Source: a virus
Strand: one strand, 5' to 3'
IMG/VR virus record: IMGVR_UViG_3300029448_000074
Coordinates: 1 to 47,348 of that record
Length of the DNA stretch: 47,348 nt
Shown piece by piece: positions 14,716 through 42,060 of the stretch. Under the pieces are notes generated by a model that was given only the letters and a program-made list of their open reading frames with translations, was not told the DNA's origin and made no database searches. Both the position numbers and the translations under genes were made by a program. Position 1 is the first letter of the stretch. Each line of letters starts with the position of its first letter.

Positions 14716-16251
14716 TTATGGGCAATTGCTAATTGTTAATTCTATAATTCCATCACCTGATAACACCGTTGGTGTTGGGCAGCTAAGTCTAGCACATACT
14801 GTTTGATTTACGCCAGCGGTTACTGTTGGCGTCTGTACTGTGCCATTCTCATCAGTGTATTGGAATTGACTATCTACAGTGCTATCTCCGTTAAATAGTA
14901 CTATTTCCTTTGTTTCATAGGTTTTAACCAAATAAGTTTCTATAAGGTTATCTAAACTATAAGACATATCATTTGAGTCAGTGCTGGCTGTTGCGATTTG
15001 AACTTGGAGAGTTACCCCACCTCCACTAATATTTATTAGTTTTGCTCCATTTACAACATTAAATGTTCCATCTGGTAAATCTTCTGTTTTAGAAAAGTCT
15101 GTTGACGGAATAACATTTGTAGTGGCCCATGAAAGAGATAATCCAGGGCACGTTAGCACAGGCTCTATAATGTGATTAATATACCTAACTTGTAAGTCTT
15201 CAGAATTCGATACTAAGGTTTGGAAATCTGAATTATCCACAACTATTTCGCTATCGCTTGTTGATACTGTACCATTTATTATTATACTACTCCTAGTAAA
15301 TCTATTAAATGTAATAGTCCAATAGCTACTAGGTTGGCTAGGATCTAAATCAGATCCCGATGGGACAAAAGTTAATGCGTGAGTATCACCATTTGCAGCA
15401 GATGGAAAATTAATTTGTTCTACTGCGTTTCCAGCAGGTACAATACCACTTACCGTATTTGTTCCGCTAGATACAAATGTAGCACCATTATCTATTGTTA
15501 ATTCGTAGTTTGCCCCTGCAACACCTAATATAGCAAGATCTCTAAATGTTTGTGTAACTGGAACACTAGTTGATATTGAATATCCTGTCACGTTCACTGG
15601 TATAACCGGTATCGCTATTGCGTGGGCGTAAACATCTATTTCATCTCCGCTGTGATTTACAAATGGATATGTGTAATCAGCATTAACTCTTACAGCAGTT
15701 AACCTATTATTTGAATCAAACACCGCACCTGTTGTATATAAATTGTAGTCAGTGGGATCACCAGTCCTAAGAGATATAGTTGGTGTAGACTGAAAGTAAT
15801 AACCTGTATCGGCTTGTAAAAGCTGCGATAATATTTCTTCTGTACTTTCTGCCGGCCCTGAGTTTGTATAATCTACACCATTAGGTGTTGGCAATGGCGT
15901 GGCATTTGCCGTATCATAAAATACTTTGCCCGCTATAGTTACACCAAGCTCTTCAGCTACGCCGCGCATACATATTTTTATATCAAGATTATTATTAGGC
16001 ATAGTTGCTGTAGTGACAAAAACCACAGTTAATACAACATTTACGCCGTCTTGTGTAAAGTAAGAATTTGGCACATCAATCTCTGGGTTTGATGAAACAA
16101 CAGCAAAATTACTTGCTTGAATCTCATAGCCTTGATTTGGCGTTATTGTTAATACAGCTTGAGGAGCAACGCTGCTTATCAAGTCTCCACCTGGTATTAC
16201 AAATTCTTGTGAGGTTACCGTAAAATTATCTATTGCTACTATATTACTCAT
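14716..16251 (-). CDS. Beta-rich tail-associated structural protein (511 aa)
   Basis: Nearly all of the sequence is Thr/Ser/Val/Asn-rich beta strand, with several Ig-like stretches (for example about residues 10-95 with VLTITPNQGYEIQASNF, and about 215-330). A few Cys occur (CMRG, TCPG, CARLSCP, SNCP). There is no signal peptide or enzyme motif. Its ATG overlaps the stop of the 1906-residue tail protein (TAATG), so the two are probably translated together and may assemble together. A tail appendage or receptor-binding accessory is the likely role. No named family was recognised. Confidence 0.68.
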   Translation of the reverse strand: MSNIVAIDNFTVTSQEFVIPGGDLISSVAPQAVLTITPNQGYEIQASNFAVVSSNPEIDVPNSYFTQDGVNVVLTVVFVTTATMPNNNLDIKICMRGVAEELGVTIAGKVFYDTANATPLPTPNGVDYTNSGPAESTEEILSQLLQADTGYYFQSTPTISLRTGDPTDYNLYTTGAVFDSNNRLTAVRVNADYTYPFVNHSGDEIDVYAHAIAIPVIPVNVTGYSISTSVPVTQTFRDLAILGVAGANYELTIDNGATFVSSGTNTVSGIVPAGNAVEQINFPSAANGDTHALTFVPSGSDLDPSQPSSYWTITFNRFTRSSIIINGTVSTSDSEIVVDNSDFQTLVSNSEDLQVRYINHIIEPVLTCPGLSLSWATTNVIPSTDFSKTEDLPDGTFNVVNGAKLINISGGGVTLQVQIATASTDSNDMSYSLDNLIETYLVKTYETKEIVLFNGDSTVDSQFQYTDENGTVQTPTVTAGVNQTVCARLSCPTPTVLSGDGIIELTISNCP

Positions 16252-19200
16252 TATGGTATTGGATTTACGGGTTGACCTGTGTATATGTCAATTGTTATTA
16301 AAGTTCCGGTTGTGAACGCTGTACAAAGTATTTGCTGCGCATTAACATCAAATATATTAAACCAAAGTGCATCACTGTGGCAATTTGCGTCTAGAGGATC
16401 GCCACCTACATCTGTGAATGTACCACATTCCATGAAGAACGTAATTTGCCCATTACTCGAGTTTTGCGCTAATGTCTGCGCATCAGCTTCGCTTATTTGG
16501 AAACTACTATATCTATCACTTGTGTTTCTAACTGTTCCTTGTGGTGTGTAATATTTTTCATTACCAGTCGGAACACCTAAATCAGGTGTTGGGTTACCAT
16601 CACTATCGTAGTAATTTGTGCCACCACCTCCAACATTAGAAATATGCACCCTGCCAATTTCTATAGCATCACCCGTGTCTGCTGCTGCAAATATATTAAA
16701 TGTACCTCTATTGCAAGTGTGGCCACCGTTCGTAGGCGATGCGCACACCGTAGTTGATACTCCTGTATTTGGATCTACCCAAGTGCCCTGAGGTTCCTGA
16801 GCTAAAACGTATCTACCCACTATATCTAAATTAGTTAGCAGGTTAGCTAAGCCTTCGATTTCTACGTTTTGTGTAGCTGTATTAGGCGGTGTGTCTGGAT
16901 CACTAACAACCAAATTAAAAGAGTATGGCTGCGCATCTGGCACTGCCCCTGTAACAAGCGCTGTTCCATCGCCATTATCCGTAAGCGTTAGCCAGCTAGG
17001 TAAATTACTTGATGTTATAGTTAGCTCAGCACCCGTGTGGTCCGCGTCGGCTACAGCGACATTATAAGTGTATGTATCACCTATAGCATACGCTGTTGTT
17101 GGTGGGGTTGTTGTAAAATAAGGAATATCTGGCGTAGCGTCAACTGTTATTGTAACTGTGCCAACATTACTAACAAGAACAGATCCATTAAATGTGTCTG
17201 TTGCGGTAAAGTTAAAAGCACCAGCGCCACCATTAAAGTTTGCGCTTGGCGTAAATGTAACAACACTTCCATTTATAGTCAGCGTGCCATCATTTGTATT
17301 GTCTGCGGTAATATTGTATGTTATAGTGCCAGCTGGTATATTATTGTCTGTAGTTAAATTAGCAAGGTCAATTGTCGGGCAGCTTGTGCAATCCTCTATG
17401 GAAGTTAAACTTCCGTTTATAACATAAGGTGCAATCCTCGCTACAAAGCAAGACGGATCAACTTCAACATGCAAAATAAATGAACTTTGAGTATCTCCTG
17501 ATATTTCTGCACGCCCGATACCTTGCATTGAAAACTCTGCGGCATCTAAATTATTATTCAGGTTGGTACTAAATTGTGTACCAATACCTTTTATGTAATT
17601 AAAGTATTTACCCTCTTTATCTAAAAATTCTTTAACGCTACCTTCTTGAAGATTTGTTTGTATTAAATTTGTATACCACCCTGGCGTGGATGCTTCGCTT
17701 ATTGGATTATAATTTGGGTTAGCTTGCAATTCGGCTAAACTAAATGTTTGCACTTCAGGTTTACCTTCAACTTGATACCTGTATTCCCTAGACTCTGTTC
17801 CGGAATAATTTAATGTTTTATATTTTTTAACGATGTTTGGTTGGTCATTTATTAAAAACCTAATAGCGCTATCGTATTGGACTCCGTAAAAATTGTTCCG
17901 TGTTGCATTAGATGCCCCATGCTCCCAAATTCTACCACTTTTAATACTGTAGTATTTATTGTTTAGCGATATTGCCCCTTCTGGTATAAAATCTTTACGA
18001 GAGGTCCAACCTTTAACATCTTCTTTATAAGAAATGGTAGTCCCGTTTTGAGTTAATGACGGATTAAAATAATTAAGTTTAAGCTTGTCTTTCCACTCAT
18101 CTGTAAGATTATTAAGCGTAAGGTTATAAACGTCCTTATCGTCGTCGTATGAGCCTAATAACACGTTTGAAGAGTGTAGATTGTCTGCAAAAAAGTCACG
18201 CATATTAGCGGCTGATATTTCTTCTAACCCATTACGTGATAATCTTAACACAACACCTCTGTTCTTATCGGTAAAGTATGCTCTAAAACCATAAGTGGCA
18301 AAGCTTTCTGGGTTTTTGGATATACCATATTCGCCAAGAAAAGGTATTGATTGACCCAGCACAGCGGTATTACCAACAACATTTGTGCTTCCGTCTGCAT
18401 TGAAGAGAGCATCTTTATTTGCCAATATCTTAAGAACTTTGTCCTCGCAAAAAGCAATTAAATCGGTATCTCTTGAGTGCAACTTTTGAACACTTGTATA
18501 ATAAGGATTTAAATCTTTAGTGATTGGTTCTGCTGCTATAAATTGATTCAACCTATTTACGCCAGAAGTTGAATTAAATATTTGTGAGAATATTAAACCG
18601 GTAGCTTTTGTTTCTTCGCCGTATGCTTCGTCTAAAACAGTTGAAACAACAGGGCCTTTGTCTATGCGTGTTGCATTAAAATCGTCACGTATACGATCAG
18701 ACTCAACACCTTGTCCAAAAGAATAGCAATTAAACCAATCTAGTTTTTGTAATGGCTGATGCGCAGCCATAGTAGTCTTTGCATTTTGTATTTCATATAT
18801 ATTACTAGCTGAATAATATAAGTCTAAATCAACAGCCTCTTTTGGATATGTTTCAAATATAGCTGGGTTATTAGAAGTATATGTATCTGCATCTACCGCG
18901 TATAATCTTACAAATTCAACGCCTGTTTTTGTGGGATTTGCTTGGCCAGTATTAAGAGGCGGCAACCCTGTAGACGTAGCTATAGGTTTATCTATTTTTA
19001 TATTCCACCTAACAACTCTACGGCTCCCGTATTTACCAGAACCATGTCTACCTGTTCTTCTGCTGGCAACACAGTATGCTGAGCGGTAGCTCATTGTTAT
19101 AGTATATGTGTGGGAATCTAATTCTTTGTCTGGGTCGTCTGTAATTCTAAATGCACTACCCGATGTATCTAACGCTTTAGCGAAACCTATATGGTGTCCC

Positions 19201-21971
19201 GCGTCGGGTTGATTAGTTGGCCAATTCCACCAAATACCTGTACTATCATAAAAAGCTTTAGATTGTTTCCAAGGGTTACCAAATCCGTGAAATGATATAC
19301 TTAAGTTCCTAGACCCAGTTTCTATACCTAAACCACTATTTGGTCGTTCGTCTTGATTACCACGCTGGTATTTAACATCACTGCCTGCTCGTCTTCTAAC
19401 ATCTAATGGAGATGATTTATCCCAAAACCATCCTTTGCTATTATCCGGCGCTGTGTCTCTCCAAAAACTACTCTTACCGCCATTTTGTATATAAGCTACT
19501 TCTTTTTGGTGTTCTGTAATTAGCTGGGCGTCTTGCGCTTTTTTAATTATACGCTGTTCTAAAGCGTTGTCTTTATATATTTTTACAAAAAATCTACCTT
19601 GGTATTCAGGTTTATTTTCAGATCTAGATTGATATATTGCTATGTCTATAGGTACACCAGTTTGTCCTTCTGGTATAAAGTCTAAACTACCATCAGTGGG
19701 GAACCTAAGTTGAATTCTGTATAAATTCCCTTGTTTTTTGATCCATTCTATTTCAAAATAATCAGATATATTGGATCCTGCAATTATTCTACAAGATAAA
19801 TTATTTTCTGTATTTAAACCATTAAGACCCCCTCCGTTGGCGTCAGTGCCATCAAAATCGTCTTTAGGTATTTCAAAAAACCCTTTATTAACTTGTGGGT
19901 ATCCTGAACTTGTAAACTCAGTTGTTTGTCTACCCGCTTGATGTCTTCTTATCTTAACAGCATCTGGCGCTTCATTTGATATGGCTAATATCTTATATCT
20001 AGCGGTTTCTTCAATAAACGTATTATTATCATGCTCTTTTTTAAGCTCCAAAAACGTTTCTTCATCAACTTTATTTCTATCGGCAGACGGGAAAGACAAC
20101 CATACACTACCATCTTCTGGTAAATAAAATCTATCTAACGCTAAATTATAATACTCGTTAGATGTTTCTTTTATATAAAACTTATAATGTGTAGCCCAAC
20201 TTGGTGGGTTTGAAAGCATACCTATTTCTATGGTATTGTATAAGTCTGCAAATTCTTTCGCTAATGATCTACCACCGGAATCGTTTGTAAATACAGGTGT
20301 TTGCCTACCGTATTCGTCTAAATACACAATACCCATTTGGTAAGTACGCATAGTTTTTAAAGATGGCACCGGTGTACTTCCGTCAGGATCTGATGATATA
20401 TTTATAAATTGGCCTGGGTTATCCGGGTCTTCAATAATATCTTCATTTTTTGTTGGGTCGTGCACAATACTAAACTCAAAGTTTGGTATAACTTCACTGC
20501 CAGCAAAGTCGACCATGTCAAAGTTTTGGGTGTAGTTACCGTATATAATTCTATTTCCGGTAATTTCTTGAGCCAGTGCTTTTTTAGGAACGTTGTCGTA
20601 AGGCCTTAGTAATTGATTAGATGGCAATAAAGACGATATAAGCTCTGTCTCTATTTTAATTCTACCACTATAACCAGTAGCGCCGCCTTCCTGATAGCTT
20701 GTATCATTCCATTGATTATATGATTTGCCAGGTAAATTTGGCGCGCTTTTTTCTATAGTATCAACACGATATACGTTAGTGCTGTTTGATTCTTTATAAA
20801 GTATATCTACAGCTATTACGTCATCAGGAATATTAGGTGTAATAAAATCTCTTACCTCCAAGACTCGTATATTATTCGTCATGGCTAAGTTATAGCCATC
20901 AACACCCGTATACTCAAACTCATCTCCGGGTATAAATGCTATCTCTGTAAAAGGTGAAAATGTTGAAAATTGGTTGTCGTCGTATTTATAACGATATGCG
21001 AAGCGAGGAAATTTAAACTCAAATAACGGGTCGTCTTGCTCTAGTAATACATCAAACCCCTGTGGCCCAGTAGGCAAATCTTCACCTACGCTTTGTAATT
21101 CACATATAGCTTGTGCTTCTGAAACAGCTTGTGTAACTTTTACTCGTGCCTGATATTCTCTTTGAAAATTGTCATCAGGGTCTTGTATTGTTAATAATAA
21201 AAAGTCGCCTGCTATATAGTCTACTGCGTTTGTCCAGTTTAAAGTTATAACAGTACCGAAGTCCATCGAGATTGTTTCATCGGGATCATCATCGTCTTCA
21301 GTAGACAGTGTGTTAAACTCAAACGTGGTAGTTGTTTCTATCTCACCGTCTCTAACAGTATTCTTTTTATATATAGTTGGTCGTAAAAGGGGAGATTTTT
21401 TTATAACAGTAATATCGGCTTCTATAAAGTTTCTGCCGAATATTTGAGTGTGCGTATCAAAATCAGTCGAGCCATCTTTAAACTTTTGTATTTCAATTTT
21501 TTTAGGCTCAGTTTGATTATCTGTAAAAAACAAAAAACCTTCAAGTATATTTACACCTGTAATTAAAAAGTTTTCATTAAATTTAAGTATACCGGTTTTG
21601 TCTACTAATATAGGAAAAACAACATCTCTTATTTGGTCATACTCAACAATAGCGTCTACGCTCTGTGATGTAATAAACCAATATATTTTTTCTGTGGTTG
21701 CATCTTTTACAGTACCTATACATTTAGCGTCAGTAGGTATATAAGCTAGCCCAGATGCCGCCCATGTGGTATGCAACGTAGTTATATCGTTTAAAGTACG
21801 ATTGACCATCTGAACATTACCAATAAGCGTTTGTAATGCACCAACGTCTGAGCCTTCGGATGTAGCTACCTCTAGGTTTAACGCATCTCTGTACTCGCCA
21901 TTTGGAACTAAACGCTCATCAAGGTCTTTATTCATTTTACCCTTGAGGAACGTGTGAATCAATTCTGGCAT
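16251..21971 (-). CDS. Large tail (muzzle/stabilisation-type) protein with C-terminal Ig/cadherin-like domains (1906 aa)
   Basis: The N-terminus contains KGKMNKDLDERLVPNGEYRD and then ALNLEVATSEGSD, a signature I know from tail proteins of crAss-like and other Bacteroidota podoviruses, comparable in role to P22 gp10 or T7 gp12. The first 1450 residues form repeated beta-rich blades with Trp and Tyr. Residues about 1528-1604 look like a cadherin-like repeat (VVTFTPSANFNGG). Residues about 1614-1704 look like a putative-Ig (He_PIG) domain with SNLPSWLTLTDNGDGTALVTG. A further beta domain of about 200 residues closes the protein. It follows the two ring/adaptor genes, as expected for the distal tail. 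The C-terminal domains probably bind the cell surface. Confidence 0.82.
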   Translation of the reverse strand: MPELIHTFLKGKMNKDLDERLVPNGEYRDALNLEVATSEGSDVGALQTLIGNVQMVNRTLNDITTLHTTWAASGLAYIPTDAKCIGTVKDATTEKIYWFITSQSVDAIVEYDQIRDVVFPILVDKTGILKFNENFLITGVNILEGFLFFTDNQTEPKKIEIQKFKDGSTDFDTHTQIFGRNFIEADITVIKKSPLLRPTIYKKNTVRDGEIETTTTFEFNTLSTEDDDDPDETISMDFGTVITLNWTNAVDYIAGDFLLLTIQDPDDNFQREYQARVKVTQAVSEAQAICELQSVGEDLPTGPQGFDVLLEQDDPLFEFKFPRFAYRYKYDDNQFSTFSPFTEIAFIPGDEFEYTGVDGYNLAMTNNIRVLEVRDFITPNIPDDVIAVDILYKESNSTNVYRVDTIEKSAPNLPGKSYNQWNDTSYQEGGATGYSGRIKIETELISSLLPSNQLLRPYDNVPKKALAQEITGNRIIYGNYTQNFDMVDFAGSEVIPNFEFSIVHDPTKNEDIIEDPDNPGQFINISSDPDGSTPVPSLKTMRTYQMGIVYLDEYGRQTPVFTNDSGGRSLAKEFADLYNTIEIGMLSNPPSWATHYKFYIKETSNEYYNLALDRFYLPEDGSVWLSFPSADRNKVDEETFLELKKEHDNNTFIEETARYKILAISNEAPDAVKIRRHQAGRQTTEFTSSGYPQVNKGFFEIPKDDFDGTDANGGGLNGLNTENNLSCRIIAGSNISDYFEIEWIKKQGNLYRIQLRFPTDGSLDFIPEGQTGVPIDIAIYQSRSENKPEYQGRFFVKIYKDNALEQRIIKKAQDAQLITEHQKEVAYIQNGGKSSFWRDTAPDNSKGWFWDKSSPLDVRRRAGSDVKYQRGNQDERPNSGLGIETGSRNLSISFHGFGNPWKQSKAFYDSTGIWWNWPTNQPDAGHHIGFAKALDTSGSAFRITDDPDKELDSHTYTITMSYRSAYCVASRRTGRHGSGKYGSRRVVRWNIKIDKPIATSTGLPPLNTGQANPTKTGVEFVRLYAVDADTYTSNNPAIFETYPKEAVDLDLYYSASNIYEIQNAKTTMAAHQPLQKLDWFNCYSFGQGVESDRIRDDFNATRIDKGPVVSTVLDEAYGEETKATGLIFSQIFNSTSGVNRLNQFIAAEPITKDLNPYYTSVQKLHSRDTDLIAFCEDKVLKILANKDALFNADGSTNVVGNTAVLGQSIPFLGEYGISKNPESFATYGFRAYFTDKNRGVVLRLSRNGLEEISAANMRDFFADNLHSSNVLLGSYDDDKDVYNLTLNNLTDEWKDKLKLNYFNPSLTQNGTTISYKEDVKGWTSRKDFIPEGAISLNNKYYSIKSGRIWEHGASNATRNNFYGVQYDSAIRFLINDQPNIVKKYKTLNYSGTESREYRYQVEGKPEVQTFSLAELQANPNYNPISEASTPGWYTNLIQTNLQEGSVKEFLDKEGKYFNYIKGIGTQFSTNLNNNLDAAEFSMQGIGRAEISGDTQSSFILHVEVDPSCFVARIAPYVINGSLTSIEDCTSCPTIDLANLTTDNNIPAGTITYNITADNTNDGTLTINGSVVTFTPSANFNGGAGAFNFTATDTFNGSVLVSNVGTVTITVDATPDIPYFTTTPPTTAYAIGDTYTYNVAVADADHTGAELTITSSNLPSWLTLTDNGDGTALVTGAVPDAQPYSFNLVVSDPDTPPNTATQNVEIEGLANLLTNLDIVGRYVLAQEPQGTWVDPNTGVSTTVCASPTNGGHTCNRGTFNIFAAADTGDAIEIGRVHISNVGGGGTNYYDSDGNPTPDLGVPTGNEKYYTPQGTVRNTSDRYSSFQISEADAQTLAQNSSNGQITFFMECGTFTDVGGDPLDANCHSDALWFNIFDVNAQQILCTAFTTGTLITIDIYTGQPVNPIP

Positions 21972-24592: not shown

Positions 24593-26011
24593 CTATGATG
24601 TTGGTGGTGCAATAGCCTTCAATAATACGAAGTTATTAGCAGCTTGAACACACAACGCTCTTTCTGACAAGAAGTGTACGTTCATTTCGTCAGCGTCAGA
24701 AGTATAGTTACCTCCTACTGATCCAGTCACCCAAGACTTCATTCTACGGTCATCAGCTTCAGAAGCTCTGTAGCGGATGTGTAAGAATGGTCGAGAGATG
24801 TTCTTTCCGAGTTGCTGATCGTAAACTGTAGAAGTTCCAGCAGGAACAATTACACCTTCAACATCTGCAACAAGTCCACGGGTGGTGGCATCGTTTAGAT
24901 ATTTCCAGTCAGTTTTGTAGAAATCGTAAGAACCTCTTCGGAATCCTGAGAAACCAAGGTTTAGCGCCATATCTTCTGAATTGTCAAATACACCGTAAGA
25001 TGTACCTCCAGCTCCATAAGAGTTTTGAGCAGCTAGCATGTTATCGATAGCCAAGGAAGTGCCACGGTCTAAGAACATCATGTTCTCTTCAATAGCCCCT
25101 TGCTTATCTAGTTCAGCTAAAATAGTATCAAAGTCAGCAAGTCCATCAGTGCCACCGAATGCAGAGTCAGCATAAACTAATCCTCTTTCTTCTAGTGCAG
25201 CAAATAAACCTTCAGAACCAGTAATCTTAGTACCACCCTCAAAACCAGAGGCAGCTGTAATATTTCTTACTGATCCATCAGTGTTTAATGATTTTTCTGC
25301 TTCAACCATAGCCATTTCAAGTTGATCTTCGAAACGGATACGAGCTTCGTGCTCAGATTTTAAGTACCATAGGTATCCAGAAGTTCCAGCTTCAGTAGTT
25401 ACTTCTACCCAACCAATTTGAGCAACGTCAGAACCATTTACATTATACTTATCTCTAAGAATAATTGGTTTGTTGTTGAAAGTTGTGAAAGAAGCGTCAA
25501 CTGAGTTACCAGCATTTTTTGTTCCTTTAGTGTACTCAGAACCGTATACAAATACTTTTACGTCAGTACCAGTCATTGTAAGACCTGATAATTCGCCGTA
25601 AGTATCTACAGTTACAGTTTGACCAACTACGTTTTGTACATATGCTTTTTGAGTTATGAATCCTTTTGAAACAACAAGTGTCATTCCTTTGCCAATCAAG
25701 TGATCAGCAGGCAATGTTAGCGTAGTAGTCGATGCTACAGCCGCGTCGTCATAAGCAATGTGTAAACGTCCTTGTTCAGACCAAGTAATTACGTCAGATG
25801 CCATAGGCATTTCCGCACCTACCATACGTAGGAATCCAGAGATAGTACGATTTCCATATCGTTCTACTTCTTTTTCGTAAACTTCAGGCAAAAATTGTTG
25901 CGTAAAGTCTAGGTCCCCGACTGCTAAGTAATTGTCACCAAACAATCCCTTAACTGGTCGTGGAGTTAAATGTTGGAGAGCTAATTCGCTCCCAGTAATT
26001 GATCCAGCCAT
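24593..26011 (-). CDS. Major capsid protein, HK97-fold type (472 aa)
   Basis: Forms the icosahedral shell. The call rests on size, on position directly after the acidic scaffold gene, and on a sequence pattern typical of Bacteroidota podovirus capsids: FTQQFLPEVYEKEVERYGNR, VGAEMPMASDVITWSEQGRL, a beta-rich E-loop-like region with many Thr/Val, and EHEARIRFEDQLEMAMVEAE. The codon use contains somewhat more C-ending codons than its neighbours, as expected for a highly expressed gene. The ATG is preceded by an A/T-only leader (ATTAAAAATTAAAAAA), a strong Bacteroidota-type start without Shine-Dalgarno. The N-terminus shows no obvious prohead-protease delta domain. Confidence 0.88.
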   Translation of the reverse strand: MAGSITGSELALQHLTPRPVKGLFGDNYLAVGDLDFTQQFLPEVYEKEVERYGNRTISGFLRMVGAEMPMASDVITWSEQGRLHIAYDDAAVASTTTLTLPADHLIGKGMTLVVSKGFITQKAYVQNVVGQTVTVDTYGELSGLTMTGTDVKVFVYGSEYTKGTKNAGNSVDASFTTFNNKPIILRDKYNVNGSDVAQIGWVEVTTEAGTSGYLWYLKSEHEARIRFEDQLEMAMVEAEKSLNTDGSVRNITAASGFEGGTKITGSEGLFAALEERGLVYADSAFGGTDGLADFDTILAELDKQGAIEENMMFLDRGTSLAIDNMLAAQNSYGAGGTSYGVFDNSEDMALNLGFSGFRRGSYDFYKTDWKYLNDATTRGLVADVEGVIVPAGTSTVYDQQLGKNISRPFLHIRYRASEADDRRMKSWVTGSVGGNYTSDADEMNVHFLSERALCVQAANNFVLLKAIAPPTS

Positions 26012-29708: not shown

Positions 29709-31919
29709 TTATTTTATTATTTCCGATATTGAACCGGCGTTTTTATATTTTGCAATATGTATATTTAACTTAGGTTTTTGCGCTTTTGGGTTTGGTCTGT
29801 ATAGATGTCTATTACAGGCCATTATTGCTAACCCTGAGCTAATAGCCGCATCAAATTTTGTTCTTTTGTTTATATCAAACTTGGCCCAATCGTTTAAGGT
29901 TTCGCTAAAATACATCGAACCGTATTGGCCATCATTAGTAATACCAACGTGGTTTTGTATATAGGTTTCAATAGCAGCCGCATGGGCTTGCTTTATATCT
30001 TCAGAAGAGTTAGGTATACCACCTATTTCTTTTTCTGTAACGGATAATTTTGTATATGTTTTATCAGGGCGATTCATAGAGTAACCTCTATATCCTCTAC
30101 GCTTTAAGTAATACAATAATCTTGGTTTATTGTTTTCACAAAGAATAGGCATACCGTAAAATACTAAAGCCATAAGCACATCTTCAAAAAACATTTCAGC
30201 TGTTTGTGGTCTTGCTACATATTCTAAAAAAAACGTATTTGACGGCGCGTCCTCCATACTAAAAGTAGTAAGCCCGTGCAACGCCCCTTTGGATCCTTTG
30301 CCATCAGTAGTTCCTGATATATCGTAACTATCACAGCCAAATGCACCTATATGATCATTAGCAGGGTATCTTATACCATTTTTAATTACTTGTTTATTTT
30401 GTAAACCAACTTTTGGCACCCAAGAAACTTTAAATCTTCCATTTGGGTTTGGGCTAAACATTACTTTTGAGTCTTTAACTCCATGCTCCCAATTAAAACT
30501 GCCCGTTGTTACAACACCTGTACTTTTTAAGTCTTCGTTGTAATCTATTTGTTCGTATATTTTAACTAAATTAAATATACTATTTTTAGTTTCATCCCTA
30601 AACGCGTGCTCTTCTGTACGCGGAAACTGCCTGTAGAACTCATTTAAAGCGTCCTGGTCACCTCTTAATCCTTCTACCTCATTGTCCCAATGTTCGATGA
30701 CGCCAACTTCGATAGCATCTCCGTATGGGCCAACGCAATCTTCTGATGGGGTTTCGAATACAGGCATCCCATAAGAATCAATGAATCCTTCGTAGTTCCA
30801 TTCCATAGGTATGAACAAAGAATATAATCCTGACTTAGTTTGTCCATTACGATTTCTTTTTGTAACGTTTGAATCATTGTATAGTTTTTTAAAGTTTTCA
30901 CCACCTTTATCTAATGCGTTTGATGTTGATCCCATCATACATTTTCCAATGATTCTACTACCTAACCTTAATGTAGTTTTTGTTACACGCCAGTTATTTA
31001 ATATGTTATCTGGTCTTTCCCACTTACCACTTTCATCGTGTACTAACAGCTTTAGTTTTTCACCATCGTAACTGTTGTCACCTGTGTTTTTCCAGTCAAT
31101 AGTTGTATCTAATCCTTCTAGCAGCTCTTGGTCTTGCTTATTTTGTATAGACTTTCTTGTAAGCCTTGAAGCTGGTATTCTATATGCCAATTCTGTTTTT
31201 GGCCGATCCATACCATCTTGTATTGGTTTAAAGAAAAACGGATAGTTTACAGATATTGGTACTACCTTGTCGGTAAACATTTTTTTAGCGTCAGAACCGG
31301 ACTTTGATAATATGCCAAATCGCGCATCGCTTGATATTGTGGCCATGTTAACGGTCTCGCCACTTGCCATGAACGAAAATCCTGAACGTCTATTCTTGAG
31401 GTAACACATACCGTAGCATCTCTGGTCTGCTTTGCAAGCTTCCCAAAAGATGAAGAATAATCTGTTTGCTTCCCTAAATTCTGGGTGCCCAACGTCAATT
31501 TTAGACCACTGCAGGTACATAAAGTGAGTACCAGTAATGTAAGTACCCACACCTTTATTATTGAACCAATGGCCTTCTTCGCGGCGTCTGAACTGTTCAT
31601 CTATATATTGTTCCCATTTTTCTTTAAAGTCATCGGGATAATCTCGCCATTCAAAAACGCTTTGTATGCGTTTTAATTCTTTTGGCAACTCCTCAACAAC
31701 CCATTTGTCATTAGATTTATCTATTTTAGCAGGTGTTTTTGGCAGAGCAACTTTTAAATTTTGTATATTATAAATTTCCCCTATTTGTCCTGTCTTGCTT
31801 ATAACAATAATGTCGTGCTCTTTGTTATAACCATACTTCCACTTTTTACCTCTATTTAACCTAGTTATTGTAGTTTGCTTTATAGGCGTCACTACACTAT
31901 ATAAACTTTGCTGATACAT
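29709..31919 (-). CDS. terL: Terminase large subunit (736 aa)
   Basis: The ATPase motor and headful or cos nuclease that packages DNA. The ATPase has a non-canonical Walker A (KNRRSGFSF, Lys175-Phe183) and a clear Walker B (LKLLVHDESGKW, Asp295-Glu296). The nuclease domain shows FGCDSYDISGTTDGKGSKGA with Asp530 and Asp533, and a later acidic site CENNKP. Conserved blocks such as YITGTHFMYLQWSKIDVGHP and NRLFFIFWEACKADQRCYGM resemble terminases of crAss-like and Cellulophaga podoviruses, from memory. The ATG overlaps the stop of the preceding small gene. All catalytic motifs are present, so the protein appears functional. Confidence 0.92.
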   Translation of the reverse strand: MYQQSLYSVVTPIKQTTITRLNRGKKWKYGYNKEHDIIVISKTGQIGEIYNIQNLKVALPKTPAKIDKSNDKWVVEELPKELKRIQSVFEWRDYPDDFKEKWEQYIDEQFRRREEGHWFNNKGVGTYITGTHFMYLQWSKIDVGHPEFREANRLFFIFWEACKADQRCYGMCYLKNRRSGFSFMASGETVNMATISSDARFGILSKSGSDAKKMFTDKVVPISVNYPFFFKPIQDGMDRPKTELAYRIPASRLTRKSIQNKQDQELLEGLDTTIDWKNTGDNSYDGEKLKLLVHDESGKWERPDNILNNWRVTKTTLRLGSRIIGKCMMGSTSNALDKGGENFKKLYNDSNVTKRNRNGQTKSGLYSLFIPMEWNYEGFIDSYGMPVFETPSEDCVGPYGDAIEVGVIEHWDNEVEGLRGDQDALNEFYRQFPRTEEHAFRDETKNSIFNLVKIYEQIDYNEDLKSTGVVTTGSFNWEHGVKDSKVMFSPNPNGRFKVSWVPKVGLQNKQVIKNGIRYPANDHIGAFGCDSYDISGTTDGKGSKGALHGLTTFSMEDAPSNTFFLEYVARPQTAEMFFEDVLMALVFYGMPILCENNKPRLLYYLKRRGYRGYSMNRPDKTYTKLSVTEKEIGGIPNSSEDIKQAHAAAIETYIQNHVGITNDGQYGSMYFSETLNDWAKFDINKRTKFDAAISSGLAIMACNRHLYRPNPKAQKPKLNIHIAKYKNAGSISEIIK

Positions 31920-32194
31920 TATTTAGATCTTTTTTCTGCAAAGCCTGAAAAGGTTTTCTTTTTTTCCTCTTCTTTAGGTTTGTTATCAAGTATAGCCTCT
32001 TCTTCCTGAATACGTGTTAATATTTCAAACGCATCAAATATAGCTAGTTTTTTTGTAGCGGCTGCGTTTTTAAGTCTATCAGCAGATATATCATCGTCTG
32101 AATCTACAATAGCTTCTTTAGCTACTTTAATTAACTCCTCAACCGCTTTGTGCCCAGCTTGGATTATACTCTTCTTCGTTTCCTTGATATTCAT
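31919..32194 (-). CDS. Putative terminase small subunit (91 aa)
   Basis: An all-helical charged protein: MNIKETKKSIIQAGHKAVEE, then a helix with DISADRLKNAAATKKLAIFD and an acidic, Lys-rich C-terminal tail. The size is right for a small terminase that recognises the packaging start site, and it directly precedes terL with a one-base stop/start overlap. No clear helix-turn-helix is visible, so the call rests mainly on position. Its first 56 bp overlap, in another frame, the 3' end of the tandem GroES-like gene. Confidence 0.55.
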   Translation of the reverse strand: MNIKETKKSIIQAGHKAVEELIKVAKEAIVDSDDDISADRLKNAAATKKLAIFDAFEILTRIQEEEAILDNKPKEEEKKKTFSGFAEKRSK

Positions 32195-32738
32195 ATTTAA
32201 TTGTAATTAGATTGGTTGGAACACGATATAACTTTTCTTTATTAATTAAAAACTCATATTCTGCACCGGGCTTAAACCCGATTAAGTCGCCTTCTTCAGC
32301 TTCTTTTAAACCAGGGTCTTTATACTTTAGTACGCCTATTAATGGTTTTTCAAAATCAATAGAAAACATTTTGTCTTCTTTAATAGGTTTTACAAAATTA
32401 AAACCATTTAGCGGAATCCACTTTATTATATGCTTATATGCAAATATCTGGTCAGGAGATACGAAGTACATGTTATCCTTATAAAAACTTTTGCTATTTT
32501 TTTCAACGCCTCTAATATCCCTAAAGCATCTAAAAACGTTATGATGTAATATAACTTCGTCTCCAACACATATGCCGGTATCATTATCTTTAGGTGTGGC
32601 CATTACAATACCAACTCTTGAAACAAAGTTATGGTTTTGTAATTCCGTATTTAATATCAGGTCTTTGCCATCAACAGTTTTTGTGTTCGTGTACCTATCA
32701 TTTTTAGGTGTTACAACAAAATCAAAAACCCCATTCAT
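32139..32738 (-). CDS. Tandem GroES-like (Cpn10-fold) protein (199 aa)
   Basis: The first half (about residues 1-105) can be laid over GroES: FDFVVTPKNDRY for the first strand, a loop with DGKDLILN like the mobile loop, VGIVMATP like the 'GEVLAVG' strand, CVGDEVILHHNVF like 'VGDIVIF', and MYFVSPDQIFAYK like the closing 'LIMSESDILAIV'. The second half repeats the layout: FVKPIKE, LIGVLKYK, EEGDLIGFKPGAEYEFLI and YRVPTNLITIKYE. Two Cpn10-type folds in one chain would make a pseudo-dimer. It could cap the phage GroEL or the host chaperonin, or be a structural protein using the same fold. It starts within a TAATG overlap and lies just upstream of the terminase genes. Confidence 0.65.
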   Translation of the reverse strand: MNGVFDFVVTPKNDRYTNTKTVDGKDLILNTELQNHNFVSRVGIVMATPKDNDTGICVGDEVILHHNVFRCFRDIRGVEKNSKSFYKDNMYFVSPDQIFAYKHIIKWIPLNGFNFVKPIKEDKMFSIDFEKPLIGVLKYKDPGLKEAEEGDLIGFKPGAEYEFLINKEKLYRVPTNLITIKYEYQGNEEEYNPSWAQSG

Positions 32739-36117: not shown

Positions 36118-36612
36118 TTATCGTTCTTTATCGTTAATCATATCATCAATTGCCTTATTAAAGACTTTATCAGTATATGTTTCGTTTTTATAAAATGTAC
36201 TTCTTTCAGATGTTGGCAAATCTTCTTCAGCCAACATTATTCTGTATATTCTTTTTATTAGTAGCTTACATTTATTAGATGTCTTGTATGCAGCATACTT
36301 TGAGGTTGTTCTATTTCGTTCTTTAAACACATCAATCCAACCTTCTCTGCGGAGTCTTTCCCACCGGTTTTTATCCCAGCTGTAGGTATATACCCCATTA
36401 ATAAAATCATTACGTGTAAATAGCTTTTTGCAATCTAAGTAAATAAGCAGCTCTAAATCAGCATCTTTTAAATTGTAAGTTTTACAGGCCCACCTTCTGA
36501 TAAGCCTGTAATACTTTAACAAATTCATATCCTGCAGGTCTTTACCGGTTAGCCTCATTCTATAAGTACTATATCTGATATTTTTAGTACGTAATACAAA
36601 TGATCGTTCCAT
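36118..36612 (-). CDS. Conserved phage winged-helix-like protein (164 aa)
   Basis: Contains YRMRLTGKDLQDMNLLKYYR, LIRRWACKTYNLKDADLELL and then a segment YSWDKNRWERLRREGWIDVF before KERNRTTSKYAAYKTSNKCK. The arrangement helix, helix, recognition helix, basic beta wing is like MarR-type winged-helix proteins. I recall close relatives in marine phages, where the conserved 'TGKDLQDMNLLKYYRL' opening is diagnostic. Possible roles are regulation of late genes or DNA binding in the virion. The start at 36612 lies inside groES (58-bp overlap in a different frame), but the conserved opening supports it. Confidence 0.7.
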   Translation of the reverse strand: MERSFVLRTKNIRYSTYRMRLTGKDLQDMNLLKYYRLIRRWACKTYNLKDADLELLIYLDCKKLFTRNDFINGVYTYSWDKNRWERLRREGWIDVFKERNRTTSKYAAYKTSNKCKLLIKRIYRIMLAEEDLPTSERSTFYKNETYTDKVFNKAIDDMINDKER

Positions 36613-36812
36613 TCTATACCGTGTCCGGCATGCTTGTCATATCTAACTATGTCTCCACCCTGTAGTATGTCTATTTGATTACCGAAGCTAATGACTCTGC
36701 CTTTAACATAACGTACGTCTTTATTTTGCTTTTCAGTAAGCTCAAGCCCACCAACTTTTGATGGCTCTTCTTTTATTTTGTCTACAATTACAAAGTAATT
36801 TATTGCTTTCAT
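36555..36812 (-). CDS. groES: GroES-like co-chaperonin (85 aa)
   Basis: Caps the GroEL cage. The Cpn10 layout is visible: YFVIVDKIKEE as the first strand, a mobile loop with VGGLEL (residues 20-25; E. coli has 'GGIVL'), VKGRVISFG like 'TRGEVLAVG', GGDIVRYD like 'VGDIVIF', and YYVLKISDIVLIE like the closing strand. The segment between ISFG and GGDIV is short, so the roof hairpin found in E. coli GroES appears reduced, as in T4 gp31. Its ATG overlaps the groEL stop by four bases (ATGA). The order groEL then groES is the reverse of that in bacterial operons. Confidence 0.85.
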   Translation of the reverse strand: MKAINYFVIVDKIKEEPSKVGGLELTEKQNKDVRYVKGRVISFGNQIDILQGGDIVRYDKHAGHGIEWNDHLYYVLKISDIVLIE

Positions 36813-38362
36813 GCTAATCGTTTATTACTGATTATACAATCGGCAGATATAATTGTATTAACAACACTCACCGCGTTCTTTAAGGCTGTTTTTGTAACTA
36901 ACACTGGATCTATAATTCCAGCTTTAATCATATTGACATCTTTGCCTGTTTTAACATCTATACCCCTATTTTTAATTTGAGGATACACAACAGGTATATT
37001 AGCATTTTCTAATATGGTTTCGTATGGCGATCTTATTGCTTCTAGCAATATCTCTTCGCCTTTGTTTTTAGCTTTTACTAATGTAGAAGCATTTAACAAA
37101 GCTACACCACCCCCTGGGACTATACCTTCTTTATAAGCGGCTTTTGTCGCATATATCGCATCTTCAATACGATCTTTCTTTTCTTTAAGCTCAACCTTAG
37201 AATCTGCTCCAACATAAATTATACCAACTTGACCAGTTAGCATTGATAGTCGCTGCTCTAATTTTTTCTTAAAAAATGGATTGGTTTCTTCAGCTATTTG
37301 CTTTTCAACATCTATTATCCGCAGGGCTACTTCTTCGTTTGCTTCAGCTACTTGCAGAACAGTGTTTTTATCGTCTGTAACAGCTTTAAAAGCTTTCCCT
37401 AATACATTAGGTTCTATGAAGTCTAAATCGTCCCCTAACTCCTCGTTTATAATTTGAGCTCCAGTTAATATAGCTAGGTCTTCAAGTGTTTGTTGTTTAG
37501 TTGGGCCAAACCCAGGTAAATCAACTATGTTTACTTTTATATTACCTTTTACTTTATTAGCTAATAATGTTTGATACGGTTGTTGATCCATATCTGCCAC
37601 TATTAGTAGGCTCTTTTTATTTTTAATTACAAATTCTAATACATTTTGTATTCTTCTTATATTAGGTATCGGTGAAGATACTATAAGAACATATGGATCT
37701 TCTAATGTAGCTGTACCTTTATTTTTATCCGTAGATAAATGTGAGGATTTTAAACCGCTATCAAATTGTACGCCATCAACAAACTCAACATAAGTTTCGT
37801 TTGTATCAGACTCTTCCATTAGAACGACTCCATTTTTTCCAACTTTTTCATAAGCTTGTCCAATTTTATCTCCAAGCTCTGTGTCGTTGTTGCATGAAAT
37901 ACTAGCAACTTGCTTAAGCATGTCACCTTTAATTTCAATACTGGCTTTATTGAGATAAACCATAACTTTTTCAGCACCACTAGTAATGCCGCTTTTAAGT
38001 TCTCTAACTTTTTCTTCATCTAAATGTTGATTAACCGTTTTTAATAAAGAATGCGCGAGGACAGTTGATGTTGTCGTTCCGTCCCCGGCTTCTTTTACTG
38101 TATTACTCGCCGCTTCTTTTATAAGTGTAGCGCCAATGTTCTCAACCGGATGTAATAAGACTACGCTTTCCGCAACGGTTACACCATCTTTTGTTATCAC
38201 CGGTTTTCCAAGAGCATCTTCGTATATCACGCATTTTCCAGACGCACCTAATGTGCTCTTTACTGCGTTTGACAATTTCTCAACACCTTGCATAATTTGT
38301 TGTTTGGCATCATGGCCAAATGTGAGGGTTTTTACAATCTCACTAGGGTTATTAAATTCCAT
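36809..38362 (-). CDS. groEL: GroEL-type chaperonin (517 aa)
   Basis: ATP-driven protein-folding cage. The equatorial ATP site is intact: TLGASGK near residues 38-44, TKDGVTVAE, AGDGTTTSTVLA with Asp94 (E. coli Asp87) and VPGGGVALLN preceded by IEDAIYATK with Asp401 (E. coli Asp398). The phosphate-loop 'GPKG' of bacterial GroEL is changed to GASG. In the apical domain, residues that bind substrate and GroES in E. coli (Tyr199, Tyr203, Phe204) are replaced in FDSGLKSSHLS. The flexible Gly-Gly-Met tail is absent; the protein ends ISNKRLA. It is followed directly by groES, and lies among late genes. A true phage chaperonin, not a cell gene fragment, is the best reading. Confidence 0.95.
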   Translation of the reverse strand: MEFNNPSEIVKTLTFGHDAKQQIMQGVEKLSNAVKSTLGASGKCVIYEDALGKPVITKDGVTVAESVVLLHPVENIGATLIKEAASNTVKEAGDGTTTSTVLAHSLLKTVNQHLDEEKVRELKSGITSGAEKVMVYLNKASIEIKGDMLKQVASISCNNDTELGDKIGQAYEKVGKNGVVLMEESDTNETYVEFVDGVQFDSGLKSSHLSTDKNKGTATLEDPYVLIVSSPIPNIRRIQNVLEFVIKNKKSLLIVADMDQQPYQTLLANKVKGNIKVNIVDLPGFGPTKQQTLEDLAILTGAQIINEELGDDLDFIEPNVLGKAFKAVTDDKNTVLQVAEANEEVALRIIDVEKQIAEETNPFFKKKLEQRLSMLTGQVGIIYVGADSKVELKEKKDRIEDAIYATKAAYKEGIVPGGGVALLNASTLVKAKNKGEEILLEAIRSPYETILENANIPVVYPQIKNRGIDVKTGKDVNMIKAGIIDPVLVTKTALKNAVSVVNTIISADCIISNKRLA

Positions 38363-38382: not shown

Positions 38383-38676
38383 TTACTCTTTTTCAAAAGT
38401 TTTTACAACCTTAGGGCCTTTTATAAAATCAAGTTTCTTTTGATAATATTGAATTGATCCATTAATTGCAGCCTCTGCACCCTCAATAGTTTCTCTCCTC
38501 GTAATATCTTTCCAGGAGTCTTCGTCTGGTACTTTAATTTCTGTTTGGTAGAATCCATTTGGCAACTGTACAATACGCCAGTTAGCTTTGGTGGATGCGT
38601 GTTTCCAGGTTTCTACGGCTTTCTCTGTTGGTTGTGGTTGACTAGTCCACGAATTAGTCTGGTAATATAGTGTCAT
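38383..38676 (-). CDS. Small conserved phage protein, unknown (97 aa)
   Basis: Aromatic-rich and soluble: LYYQTNSWTSQPQPTEKAVE, then WKHASTKANWRIVQLPNGFY, QTEIKVPDEDSWKDITRRET and a C-terminal helix ending KVVKTFEKE. The 'WRIVQLPNGFYQTE' strand pair suggests a small alpha/beta domain. It lies just upstream of groEL and after the 87-bp gap, so it may be the first gene of a transcript unit that includes the chaperonins. No function was recognised. Confidence 0.65.
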   Translation of the reverse strand: MTLYYQTNSWTSQPQPTEKAVETWKHASTKANWRIVQLPNGFYQTEIKVPDEDSWKDITRRETIEGAEAAINGSIQYYQKKLDFIKGPKVVKTFEKE

Positions 38677-39120: not shown

Positions 39121-42060
39121 TTAAAAAGTTGTTGCGTCGTATATTCTATATCTTAATTTTATTGAAACAGTTTGAACACCTGACGGTAATTGATTTGAAA
39201 CGTTTTTATGCAACGTAGTAGCTGTATTTGTTTTAAAAGTTCTACCACCCGCGTCTGCAGGTACGTCTCTTGAATAAAATCCATAAGCAGAAGCACCACC
39301 TCCCGGCATGGTCTGGCCATTAGAAAGTATTTCATTAATTTTTGCTCCAGGTAATACAGCTACGATCCCTACACCCGTGTTACTAGCCTGACGTATTTCG
39401 TATCTTTGATTTGCGCTTATAGCCCCGGTGGCATTATACTTTATCATCCAAGATGATTCATAAACTATAACAGCTTTATTTGTACCTGGTGCTGATATTA
39501 ATGTCATTCCCAAATTCCCATCAAGTTGTGCTTTTGTAAAAGTCCACGTGCCTTCTTGCATACCTCTTACTACATTACCACTTGGATCAACAGTTAAATC
39601 AGCTAAAGTATCTTGTGTTGACGCTTGATAGTTTTGATTAGGTGATAAACTACCTGTTGTTGCAACTGAAGTTGATGTAAAATCGCTTAACTTAAAACTA
39701 CCATCAACATCAAGCTTAGCCGTAGGGTTTGTCGTTCCGATCCCGACGTCGCCGGAGCGTTCGATGACCATTCGCTGCGCGCCATTAGTAAAAAACTTTT
39801 GCCCATAATAGCCGCTATAAGTTATTCCACCTGCCTCGCTGTTTCCAGCATTAGACATACCGTAGTGCGCTATCGTTGTATTGTTAAAACTAATAGAATC
39901 ACTAACGTTAAAACCTATTTTTCTCCCCCCAGTATTATCAGCAATTTCTATATTGCCCCCGCTTACAGCTAGTTTTTCACTAGGGCTAGTCGTTCCGATT
40001 CCCACGTTGCCTAAGGAGTTGATACGCATGCGTTCACTTCCGCTTGTGTCTATAACAAATGTATCAGTGCCAGGAAAACCAAAGCGCGTATTAGTGTCAA
40101 GGTCGTGATAAATGTACGACCTTATATCCATATAATCTACATTATATATATTTGTACTAGAACCACTTATATTAACATTATCTCCATACAATGTTTGTGT
40201 AGTTTCCCCGTCATACGTTTGAGTTGTTCTAACAAGCGTCCCATCCGTATATTCCTGCATACGGTATATAGAACCTTCTTCGTCTGAAGTTCTTAAACCT
40301 CTAAATTCGTGATAATTACCACCACCTTGCGCTAATTTTAACGTGCTGTTAGTTTGACTTGTATAACCTGTAGCTTCACCAACTTGAAGTGTTATAGGTG
40401 TATTGCCATTTCCAAAAAGCCCATTGCCGGCAACTTCAAGTTTTTGGCCAGGACTCGCCGTCCCGATCCCTACATTGCCTGTGCCAAGTATAACAAATTG
40501 TGTTTGATTAGAAGTCGCGTTATGTATACTAAAGCCATCTTGCCCAACATTAGGTATCCCGGCCACTAAATCAATATTATCCCCGCCACTAGATGTGTTT
40601 GTATTAGATAATCTTATTCTTGCTGTTGTTTGGTCATTACTTGAAACGTGAAGCTTTTTTTGAGGACTCGCCGTCCCGATCCCTACATTGCCGGAAGAAT
40701 CAATACGCATACGTTCCCCGTTTACTGTTTCAAAAACAAAACCAGAGGCATTTGATTGGTTTCCATAAAAATTAAGAAATCCAGTAGAAGTATTTCTACC
40801 TATATCGTAATAATACGAACTTGTGCCTATTCTAAATTGATAATCATTAGACCCAGTTGTATTAATTTCTAAAGCTCTACTAGGGTTTGTCGTTCCAATA
40901 CCTACGTTAGAAGAACCACTTACTTGCTTTACAATAAATTTAGTTCTACCATAACCAGAAGTTATTTCAAACAAACTATGCCCATCCGGAGCTTCATAGT
41001 TTTGGTTTTGATGCCGTGCATCGAAAGTAAATATACCCCTTGATGAAGCATTTGCATTGTTTTGACTAGCCGTAATATACACGGCCCCACTATTTGTTGT
41101 ATTTGCATCAAACTTTTGGCCTATACAACTTAAAGAAGGGCTAGTGGACATATTATATCTAGATGCGGTCGGGCTTGCCCCGGTAGCAAAAGCACTACCA
41201 TTTACATTTTCACTAAACGCATTAATAAAATAATAATCATTTGTCGTATTTGGCGGCGGAAAGTAACCAACAAGCCCACCAACATTAGAAAAAGCAGAGT
41301 TACCTTCTACTGAATCGTTAAAATTTAATATACCAGTTGTGTTGGATGAAAAAGAAGAAGTATTATCTACTCTACCCAATCTTAATGTCCTGTCGCTAAT
41401 TACAGTATTGCCATAACGGCCCGCACCATAATCCCCAAGAACCAAATTTGTATAAGTGTCAATAATACTATCATTTGTAAGATTGTTGCTATTGCCTATT
41501 ACAGTTGCGTTTGTGGCGTTGGTAAGTGTATTACCAGTTCCTATAACAGCTCTGCCATAAACATCAAGTTTTGTATCAGGAGTAGTCGTCCCGATTCCGA
41601 CGTCTCCTGTTGTAGCACTAACAACTAACCTTTTATTAGCGCTGCTATCCGCTAATACTATAGCGTGATTTGCGTCACTATCTGTTCCAAATAAAGCACC
41701 GTAAGTTCCACTGTCATCATCTTGAACACTTACCCAAGCTTGATTATCATTAGACTTAAATGCAGCAGTAACGTTTGTTTCTCCTGAGTTTACTTCTAGT
41801 TTATTTCCAGGGCTCGTCGTTCCGATGCCAACATTATCAACATTAAATATAGCTTTACCACCTCCTGTTACATCGCTAAAAGTCATTACATTACTTGTAA
41901 CGCCTATAGTCATATCTGGTGAACTGCTAACGCCACTTGTTAAAAACGCTATATACTGATCTGTTGATATTGGGCCATCAACAGCTAGTGCGTAGGTAGC
42001 ACCGCTTGGCCCAACCTGCAAAGCTGGTACAACAGAATCATTTAAAAATTTAATTGGCAT
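39121..42060 (-). CDS. Tail fibre with repeated VGIGT motifs (979 aa)
   Basis: A host-recognition fibre. It begins MPIKFLNDSVVPALQVGPSG and carries seven copies of a VGIGT(T/A)xPxxxLxV motif, each followed by a beta-rich insert. This motif is typical of trimeric phage and adhesin fibres. No Lys-containing S74 autoprotease end is recognised; the C-terminal 200 residues instead form a distinct beta domain (GMQEGTWTFTKAQLDGNLGM; YRIYDATTF at the end). It is the fourth fibre-type gene in the transcript and the longest. The C-terminus likely binds the receptor. Confidence 0.82.
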   Translation of the reverse strand: MPIKFLNDSVVPALQVGPSGATYALAVDGPISTDQYIAFLTSGVSSSPDMTIGVTSNVMTFSDVTGGGKAIFNVDNVGIGTTSPGNKLEVNSGETNVTAAFKSNDNQAWVSVQDDDSGTYGALFGTDSDANHAIVLADSSANKRLVVSATTGDVGIGTTTPDTKLDVYGRAVIGTGNTLTNATNATVIGNSNNLTNDSIIDTYTNLVLGDYGAGRYGNTVISDRTLRLGRVDNTSSFSSNTTGILNFNDSVEGNSAFSNVGGLVGYFPPPNTTNDYYFINAFSENVNGSAFATGASPTASRYNMSTSPSLSCIGQKFDANTTNSGAVYITASQNNANASSRGIFTFDARHQNQNYEAPDGHSLFEITSGYGRTKFIVKQVSGSSNVGIGTTNPSRALEINTTGSNDYQFRIGTSSYYYDIGRNTSTGFLNFYGNQSNASGFVFETVNGERMRIDSSGNVGIGTASPQKKLHVSSNDQTTARIRLSNTNTSSGGDNIDLVAGIPNVGQDGFSIHNATSNQTQFVILGTGNVGIGTASPGQKLEVAGNGLFGNGNTPITLQVGEATGYTSQTNSTLKLAQGGGNYHEFRGLRTSDEEGSIYRMQEYTDGTLVRTTQTYDGETTQTLYGDNVNISGSSTNIYNVDYMDIRSYIYHDLDTNTRFGFPGTDTFVIDTSGSERMRINSLGNVGIGTTSPSEKLAVSGGNIEIADNTGGRKIGFNVSDSISFNNTTIAHYGMSNAGNSEAGGITYSGYYGQKFFTNGAQRMVIERSGDVGIGTTNPTAKLDVDGSFKLSDFTSTSVATTGSLSPNQNYQASTQDTLADLTVDPSGNVVRGMQEGTWTFTKAQLDGNLGMTLISAPGTNKAVIVYESSWMIKYNATGAISANQRYEIRQASNTGVGIVAVLPGAKINEILSNGQTMPGGGASAYGFYSRDVPADAGGRTFKTNTATTLHKNVSNQLPSGVQTVSIKLRYRIYDATTF
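39715..41840 (-). repeat. Seven VGIGT(T/A)xP coding repeats in the 979-aa fibre
   Basis: Copies lie near 39735, 39990, 40460, 40675, 40895, 41590 and 41815. Two of them (about 40460 and 40675) are identical in DNA over roughly 30 bp including CGTCCCGATCCCTACATTGC. The spacing is irregular, so this is a protein-level fibre repeat with recently exchanged DNA, not a tandem array. Confidence 0.75.

Follow-up and report, generated by a model that had tools for sequence, protein, structure and literature searches.

Gene content of the chaperonin-bearing block

The window, by which we mean the whole stretch of DNA that was analyzed, comprises the 47,348 nucleotides at positions 1 to 47,348 of the IMG/VR virus record IMGVR_UViG_3300029448_000074. 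It carries a groEL gene followed directly by a groES gene, and the pair sits in a one-strand block together with tail-fiber, holin, terminase, portal, and virion genes. This location among structural genes had already been recognized in an initial reading of the letters alone (hereafter, the sequence-only reading). The features used in the analysis are as follows.

24593–26011, minus strand: virion structural protein of 472 aa and 51 kDa (phrog_13704, head and packaging), a possible client
29709–31919, minus strand: terminase large subunit (TerL; phrog_6681), the fixed neighbor of the tandem co-chaperonin gene
32139–32738, minus strand: second co-chaperonin of 199 aa with two tandem Cpn10 domains (Cpn20-like), upstream of the terminase gene (phrog_13932, hhalign, Foldseek)
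36118–36558, minus strand: conserved 146-aa gene (phrog_17028; junction sequence)
36555–36812, minus strand: groES (Cpn10), 85 aa, with mobile loop KVGGLELT and no roof hairpin (PF00166, phrog_3188, AlphaFold, Foldseek, alignment)
36809–38362, minus strand: groEL (Cpn60, group I chaperonin), 517 aa, with catalytic residues D59 and D401 (PF00118, phrog_5725, residue table, trees)
38383–38676, minus strand: 97-aa gene upstream of groEL, found there in 57 of the 74 family loci with room for it
39121–42060, minus strand: tail fiber gene of the same block (phrog_9942), a possible client

The groEL and groES genes have in common the 4-bp ATGA at 36809–36812, as the sequence-only reading had reported. 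For the gene after groES, the start is most likely at 36558 rather than at 36612, and an ATG at this position creates a second ATGA overlap, with the groES stop. Through these two overlaps, groEL, groES, and the 146-aa gene would form a translationally coupled operon. In 85 of 86 family loci, the 146-aa gene is the next gene after groES, and its dN/dS values range from 0.02 to 0.10.

By its terminase and portal sequences, the window virus groups with podoviruses of marine Flavobacteriia, with MW202828 as the nearest named record (TerL 64%); the Flavobacterium phages of the elemo type (Elemovirus), the Maribacter phage Panino, and Cellulophaga phages are further matches to its terminase or portal. 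In MW202828, elemo, and Panino, groES is immediately followed by a relative of the 146-aa gene on the opposite strand; the MW202828 record labels its version a repressor.

Elsewhere in the window, the 1906-aa virion protein encoded at 16251–21971 has weak cadherin/Ig-like matches, and its C-terminal domain matches the crAssphage muzzle (PF25729), which suggests a link to Crassvirales tails. A DUF7936 protein (PF25590; 38764–39105) separates the tail fiber gene from the chaperonin cassette, and a DUF7936-like protein is found near groEL in some relatives too. At the window edge, a ribonucleotide reductase large subunit is encoded on the plus strand (3–1562); the block is otherwise on the minus strand.

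Conservation and descent of the GroEL–GroES pair

The GroEL protein matches PF00118 (E = 1.8e-52; 179 bits, with a curated cut-off of 34) and the phage GroEL family phrog_5725 (E = 8e-139), and its alignment with E. coli GroEL runs the full length, with 187 of 510 positions identical (37%). No apical insert, the built-in lid that marks group II chaperonins, is present in the window protein. Against reconstructed ancestors, it scores 375 bits for group I and 91 bits for group II. Residues D59 and D401 correspond to D52 and D398 of E. coli, and both are invariant in all 85 rows of the family alignment, as are the GDGTTT loop, D495, and glycines 415 and 416 (the two tested of the GGG motif). The proposal that the gene encodes a complete GroEL with both catalytic aspartates was thus confirmed, and with its ATPase residues invariant, the phage GroEL would be expected to have a working ATPase. 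Binding of substrate and GroES in E. coli involves apical residues that are altered in the window protein (Y199 to L, Y203 to H, F204 to L, and L234 to Q), and this remodeling means that client and lid specificity are not transferable from E. coli GroEL. The GGM tail is absent.

The 85-aa GroES matches PF00166 (E = 1.3e-7; 32 bits, cut-off 21) and the phage GroES family phrog_3188 (E = 5.8e-12). Its AlphaFold model (pLDDT 92) resembles Cpn10 structures in Foldseek comparisons with TM values of 0.61 to 0.80, and T4 gp31 with a value of 0.69. The mobile loop retains the G-G-hydrophobic motif (GGLEL), and G22 is invariant in one alignment. In the window protein and its close family, a short loop stands at the site of the roof hairpin of E. 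coli GroES. Because gp31 is likewise without a roof hairpin, this element does not define all co-chaperonins. Note that a tblastn search of the phage collection with the 85-aa GroES gave no match because the sequence is short and divergent, but profile searches did detect the protein.

Among the 80 closest viral loci, which were chosen by GroEL similarity and are not a random sample, groES is directly downstream of groEL in every case. The junctions are overlaps of 1 to 31 bases, apart from one pair of abutting genes and one 254-base gap. Both genes are under strong purifying selection, with dN/dS values of 0.05 to 0.11 for groEL and 0.03 to 0.12 for groES, and this selection and the retention of the pair in 80 of 80 relatives argue against a chance association. 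A lone GroEL of the type known from phages EL, OBP, and AR9 was considered and ruled out, since groES adjoins groEL in all 80 viral relatives fetched. The order of the two genes is opposite to that in bacteria, as had been claimed: groEL comes first in the window, whereas groES is first in all 20 bacterial loci tested.

The sequence-only reading had further held that a phage-encoded GroEL is rare and that a pair with its co-chaperonin is rarer still. Our results and published work contradict both statements. A GroEL relative was found in 279 phage records, an upper count because several of the named records look bacterial (e.g., Acinetobacter phage MD-2021a), and an ocean-virome paper of 2017 had reported GroEL from the phi38:1-like phage group, to which the window virus belongs, in 36 marine genomes (PMC5332604). 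The pair is complete in 80 of 80 relatives and is annotated, in the same order, in the elemo phages and MW202828; Panino has been reported with GroEL and GroES (PMC11590407). The pair and its order are therefore already known, and novelty rests on the tandem lid described below.

Two trees were computed, one quick (82 rows) and one built with more care under a mixture model (44 rows), with bacterial GroELs sampled mostly from Bacteroidota and Alphaproteobacteria. The window GroEL family forms one clade in both (support of 96 in the quick tree and 100/99 in the mixture-model tree), and this clade falls outside the sampled bacterial GroELs (43 sequences). The named phages do not cluster together; DAC16 falls among bacteria and immuto just outside them, and the long branches of the named phages make the deep splits uncertain. 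One branch (support of 94/89) separates the groEL-first phages, namely the window family, elemo, MW202828, and Panino, from the groES-first phages and bacteria, so that the tree contains a single change of gene order. Marine et al. (ISME J, 2017) reportedly found viral GroELs to be common and the arrangement of the large- and small-subunit genes to follow GroEL phylogeny, a pattern with which our tree agrees.

A phage-specific GroEL clade with conserved pairing is the outcome that the sequence-only reading had named as supporting a dedicated system, and one refuting outcome it had named, a near-identical sequence inside one bacterial genus, was not seen. To our knowledge, group I chaperonins are universal in hosts, which speaks for recent capture of a host groESL, but this explanation, like an assembly error, is extremely improbable given a GroEL only 37% identical to that of E. 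coli, a phage clade outside the bacterial GroELs, the reversed gene order, the same cassette in 80 viral contigs, and seven GTDB matches that, lying in phage-like gene neighborhoods or with phage genes of the family, look like phage contigs in MAG bins. Contigs with a groEL of the phage family are binned in GTDB genomes labeled Maricaulis, Aliivibrio, Sphingobacteriales, Rickettsiales, and even Euryarchaeota, and such contigs could mislead cpn60-based typing.

The Cpn20-like tandem co-chaperonin gene

The gene at 32139–32738 was absent from the sequence-only reading. Its 199-aa product gave no Pfam or PDB sequence match and was identified by PHROGs (phrog_13932, "co-chaperonin GroES"), by hhalign comparison of each half with the GroES family (E = 2e-5 for the N half and 5e-6 for the C half), and by a fold search. 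The AlphaFold model is of moderate confidence (pLDDT 82), and its best full-length PDB match in Foldseek is 7ekq_R, the Cpn20 of the Chlamydomonas chloroplast Clp complex (E = 5e-5; TM 0.54), followed by single Cpn10s. Because Cpn10 is a small beta-barrel, fold likeness alone does not prove co-chaperonin function. In the homologs from Cellulophaga phages phi18:3 and phi38:1, Pfam Cpn10 matches the C-terminal domain. Domain 1 carries a loop with a conserved LIL hydrophobic docking motif; in the alignment, the motif is missing from domain 2, where the loop is short. Given that domain 2 has no mobile loop, we call the protein Cpn20-like only.

The tandem gene is present in 48 of 50 family records, and in all 73 loci TerL lies downstream of it at a distance of 1.5 kb or less. 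It is conserved at dN/dS values of 0.04 to 0.13. When records were selected by the tandem gene rather than by GroEL, GroEL was found in 10 of 20, but nearly all of the GroEL-less records end too close upstream to tell; with at least 6 kb upstream of the tandem gene, the count is 10 of 11. The annotations of its counterparts in elemo, phi38:1, Panino, and phi18:3 read GroES or cpn10 and do not state the two-domain structure, and the listed core genes of Pervagoviridae include a chaperonin cpn10 (PMC8776804). In phi18:3, the tandem gene lies near TerL and no Cpn60 domain was found anywhere in the genome, which indicates that presence of the tandem lid does not require a phage barrel. Flavobacterium phage MaF61 carries another tandem Cpn10 directly before GroEL (1412–1975 of its locus); this protein is not alignable with the window tandem family and thus may be of separate origin.

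In a literature search of partial coverage, we found no description of a phage tandem co-chaperonin or of a three-part set, and by reason of that coverage the novelty of a barrel with two lids is provisional.

Proposed function and comparison with known systems

We consider that the window virus most probably encodes a dedicated chaperonin of group I, served by two co-chaperonins, which probably folds virion proteins (probability of about 0.7). GroEL would bind and hydrolyze ATP and enclose clients when capped by a phage co-chaperonin. The 85-aa GroES would serve as a roofless lid like that of T4 gp31, so that the cage may be more open at its top, and the tandem co-chaperonin may cap either the phage GroEL or the host GroEL. 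The most likely clients would be abundant virion proteins encoded in the same block, because the pair is located among structural genes and the tandem gene is fixed beside the terminase gene.

The sequence-only reading had drawn its case for virion folding from the placement of the pair. In the window, the pair does lie in the structural block, but it is located elsewhere in related phages, on the strand opposite the structural genes in elemo and beside the DNA polymerase gene in phi38:1, and its placement is therefore weak evidence for virion clients. The position of the tandem gene, beside the terminase gene, hints more clearly at a connection with virion assembly.

That same gene raises a tentative alternative, in which two systems coexist: the tandem protein would be an older capsid-assembly factor that redirects host GroEL, and the pair a later addition with other clients. 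T4 gp31 is a precedent for such redirection, phi18:3 has the tandem gene near TerL and no GroEL, and cpn10 is among the Pervagoviridae core genes, as noted above. Moreover, wherever the tandem gene was found in related phages it is beside TerL, and the position of the pair varies. Nevertheless, GroEL and the tandem gene almost always co-occur in the window family.

Within this preferred reading, GroEL might possibly act as a single ring, or as rings that separate during the cycle. The inter-ring residues of E. coli are not retained in the window protein (R452 is E, E461 is P, E434 is K, and A109 and V464 fall in gaps), so that ring number is not inferable from E. coli, and phages OBP and AR9 encode characterized GroELs that form single rings (PMC9598537). 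However, the alignment is uncertain across these stretches, such residues may also vary in double-ring chaperonins, and the OBP and AR9 proteins act without a co-chaperonin, unlike the arrangement in the window.

We think it unlikely that the pair serves in takeover or protection, either by replacing host GroEL once host proteins are shut off or by guarding phage enzymes such as ribonucleotide reductase and polymerase. Chaperonin genes do lie beside the DNA polymerase gene in phi38:1 and immuto, and a published survey describes PolA neighborhoods encoding GroEL or GroES (PMC11348598), but in the window and its family the pair is in the structural block.

Comparison with known systems places the dedicated chaperonin among several partial counterparts. 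As in the window, elemo, Panino, and MW202828 have groEL followed by groES, with a tandem gene by TerL, but the GroELs of elemo and Panino are only about 36% identical to that of the window. The Cellulophaga phages phi38:1 and Calle (Pervagoviridae) also combine GroEL, Cpn10, and the tandem protein in one genome with related portal and TerL genes, whereas their groES precedes groEL with an intervening gene. The GroELs encoded by the Pseudomonas phages EL and OBP and by the Bacillus phage AR9, for which ATP-dependent activity is known, act without a co-chaperonin (PMC9598537) and are far more divergent (23% identity for OBP). T4 gp31 is a phage co-chaperonin that, like the window GroES, is without roof loops, an absence believed to help accommodate the larger capsid protein gp23 (PMC6318259). 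In contrast, gp31 is longer than the window GroES, is 12% identical to it in a structural alignment, and uses the GroEL of the host, whereas the window virus has its own.

In composition, the set also resembles that of the chloroplast, where Cpn60 works with one single-domain co-chaperonin, Cpn10, and one double-domain co-chaperonin, Cpn20, and where these two combine into mixed rings with seven Cpn10 domains in all (PMC5780408). Chloroplast Cpn60, however, uses alpha and beta subunits, the second domain of the phage tandem protein is without the mobile-loop motif, and we found no evidence for common descent. By analogy, a mixed lid of single- and double-domain proteins, with only some of its seven domains bearing a docking loop, can be envisaged for the phage, although we hold it to be rather doubtful. 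If such a lid does form, it would be asymmetric and adapted to a large virion client, and it would have arisen separately from chloroplast Cpn20.

Phage GroEL–GroES pairs are common in the ocean, and in the literature consulted neither their clients nor their differences from the host machine have been demonstrated. A tandem lid has so far been described in plastids. A barrel and two lid types within one virus offer a compact system in which to study lid geometry, symmetry mismatch, and client choice, and cultivated relatives, namely elemo, phi38:1, and phi18:3 with its tandem lid but no barrel, allow comparison.
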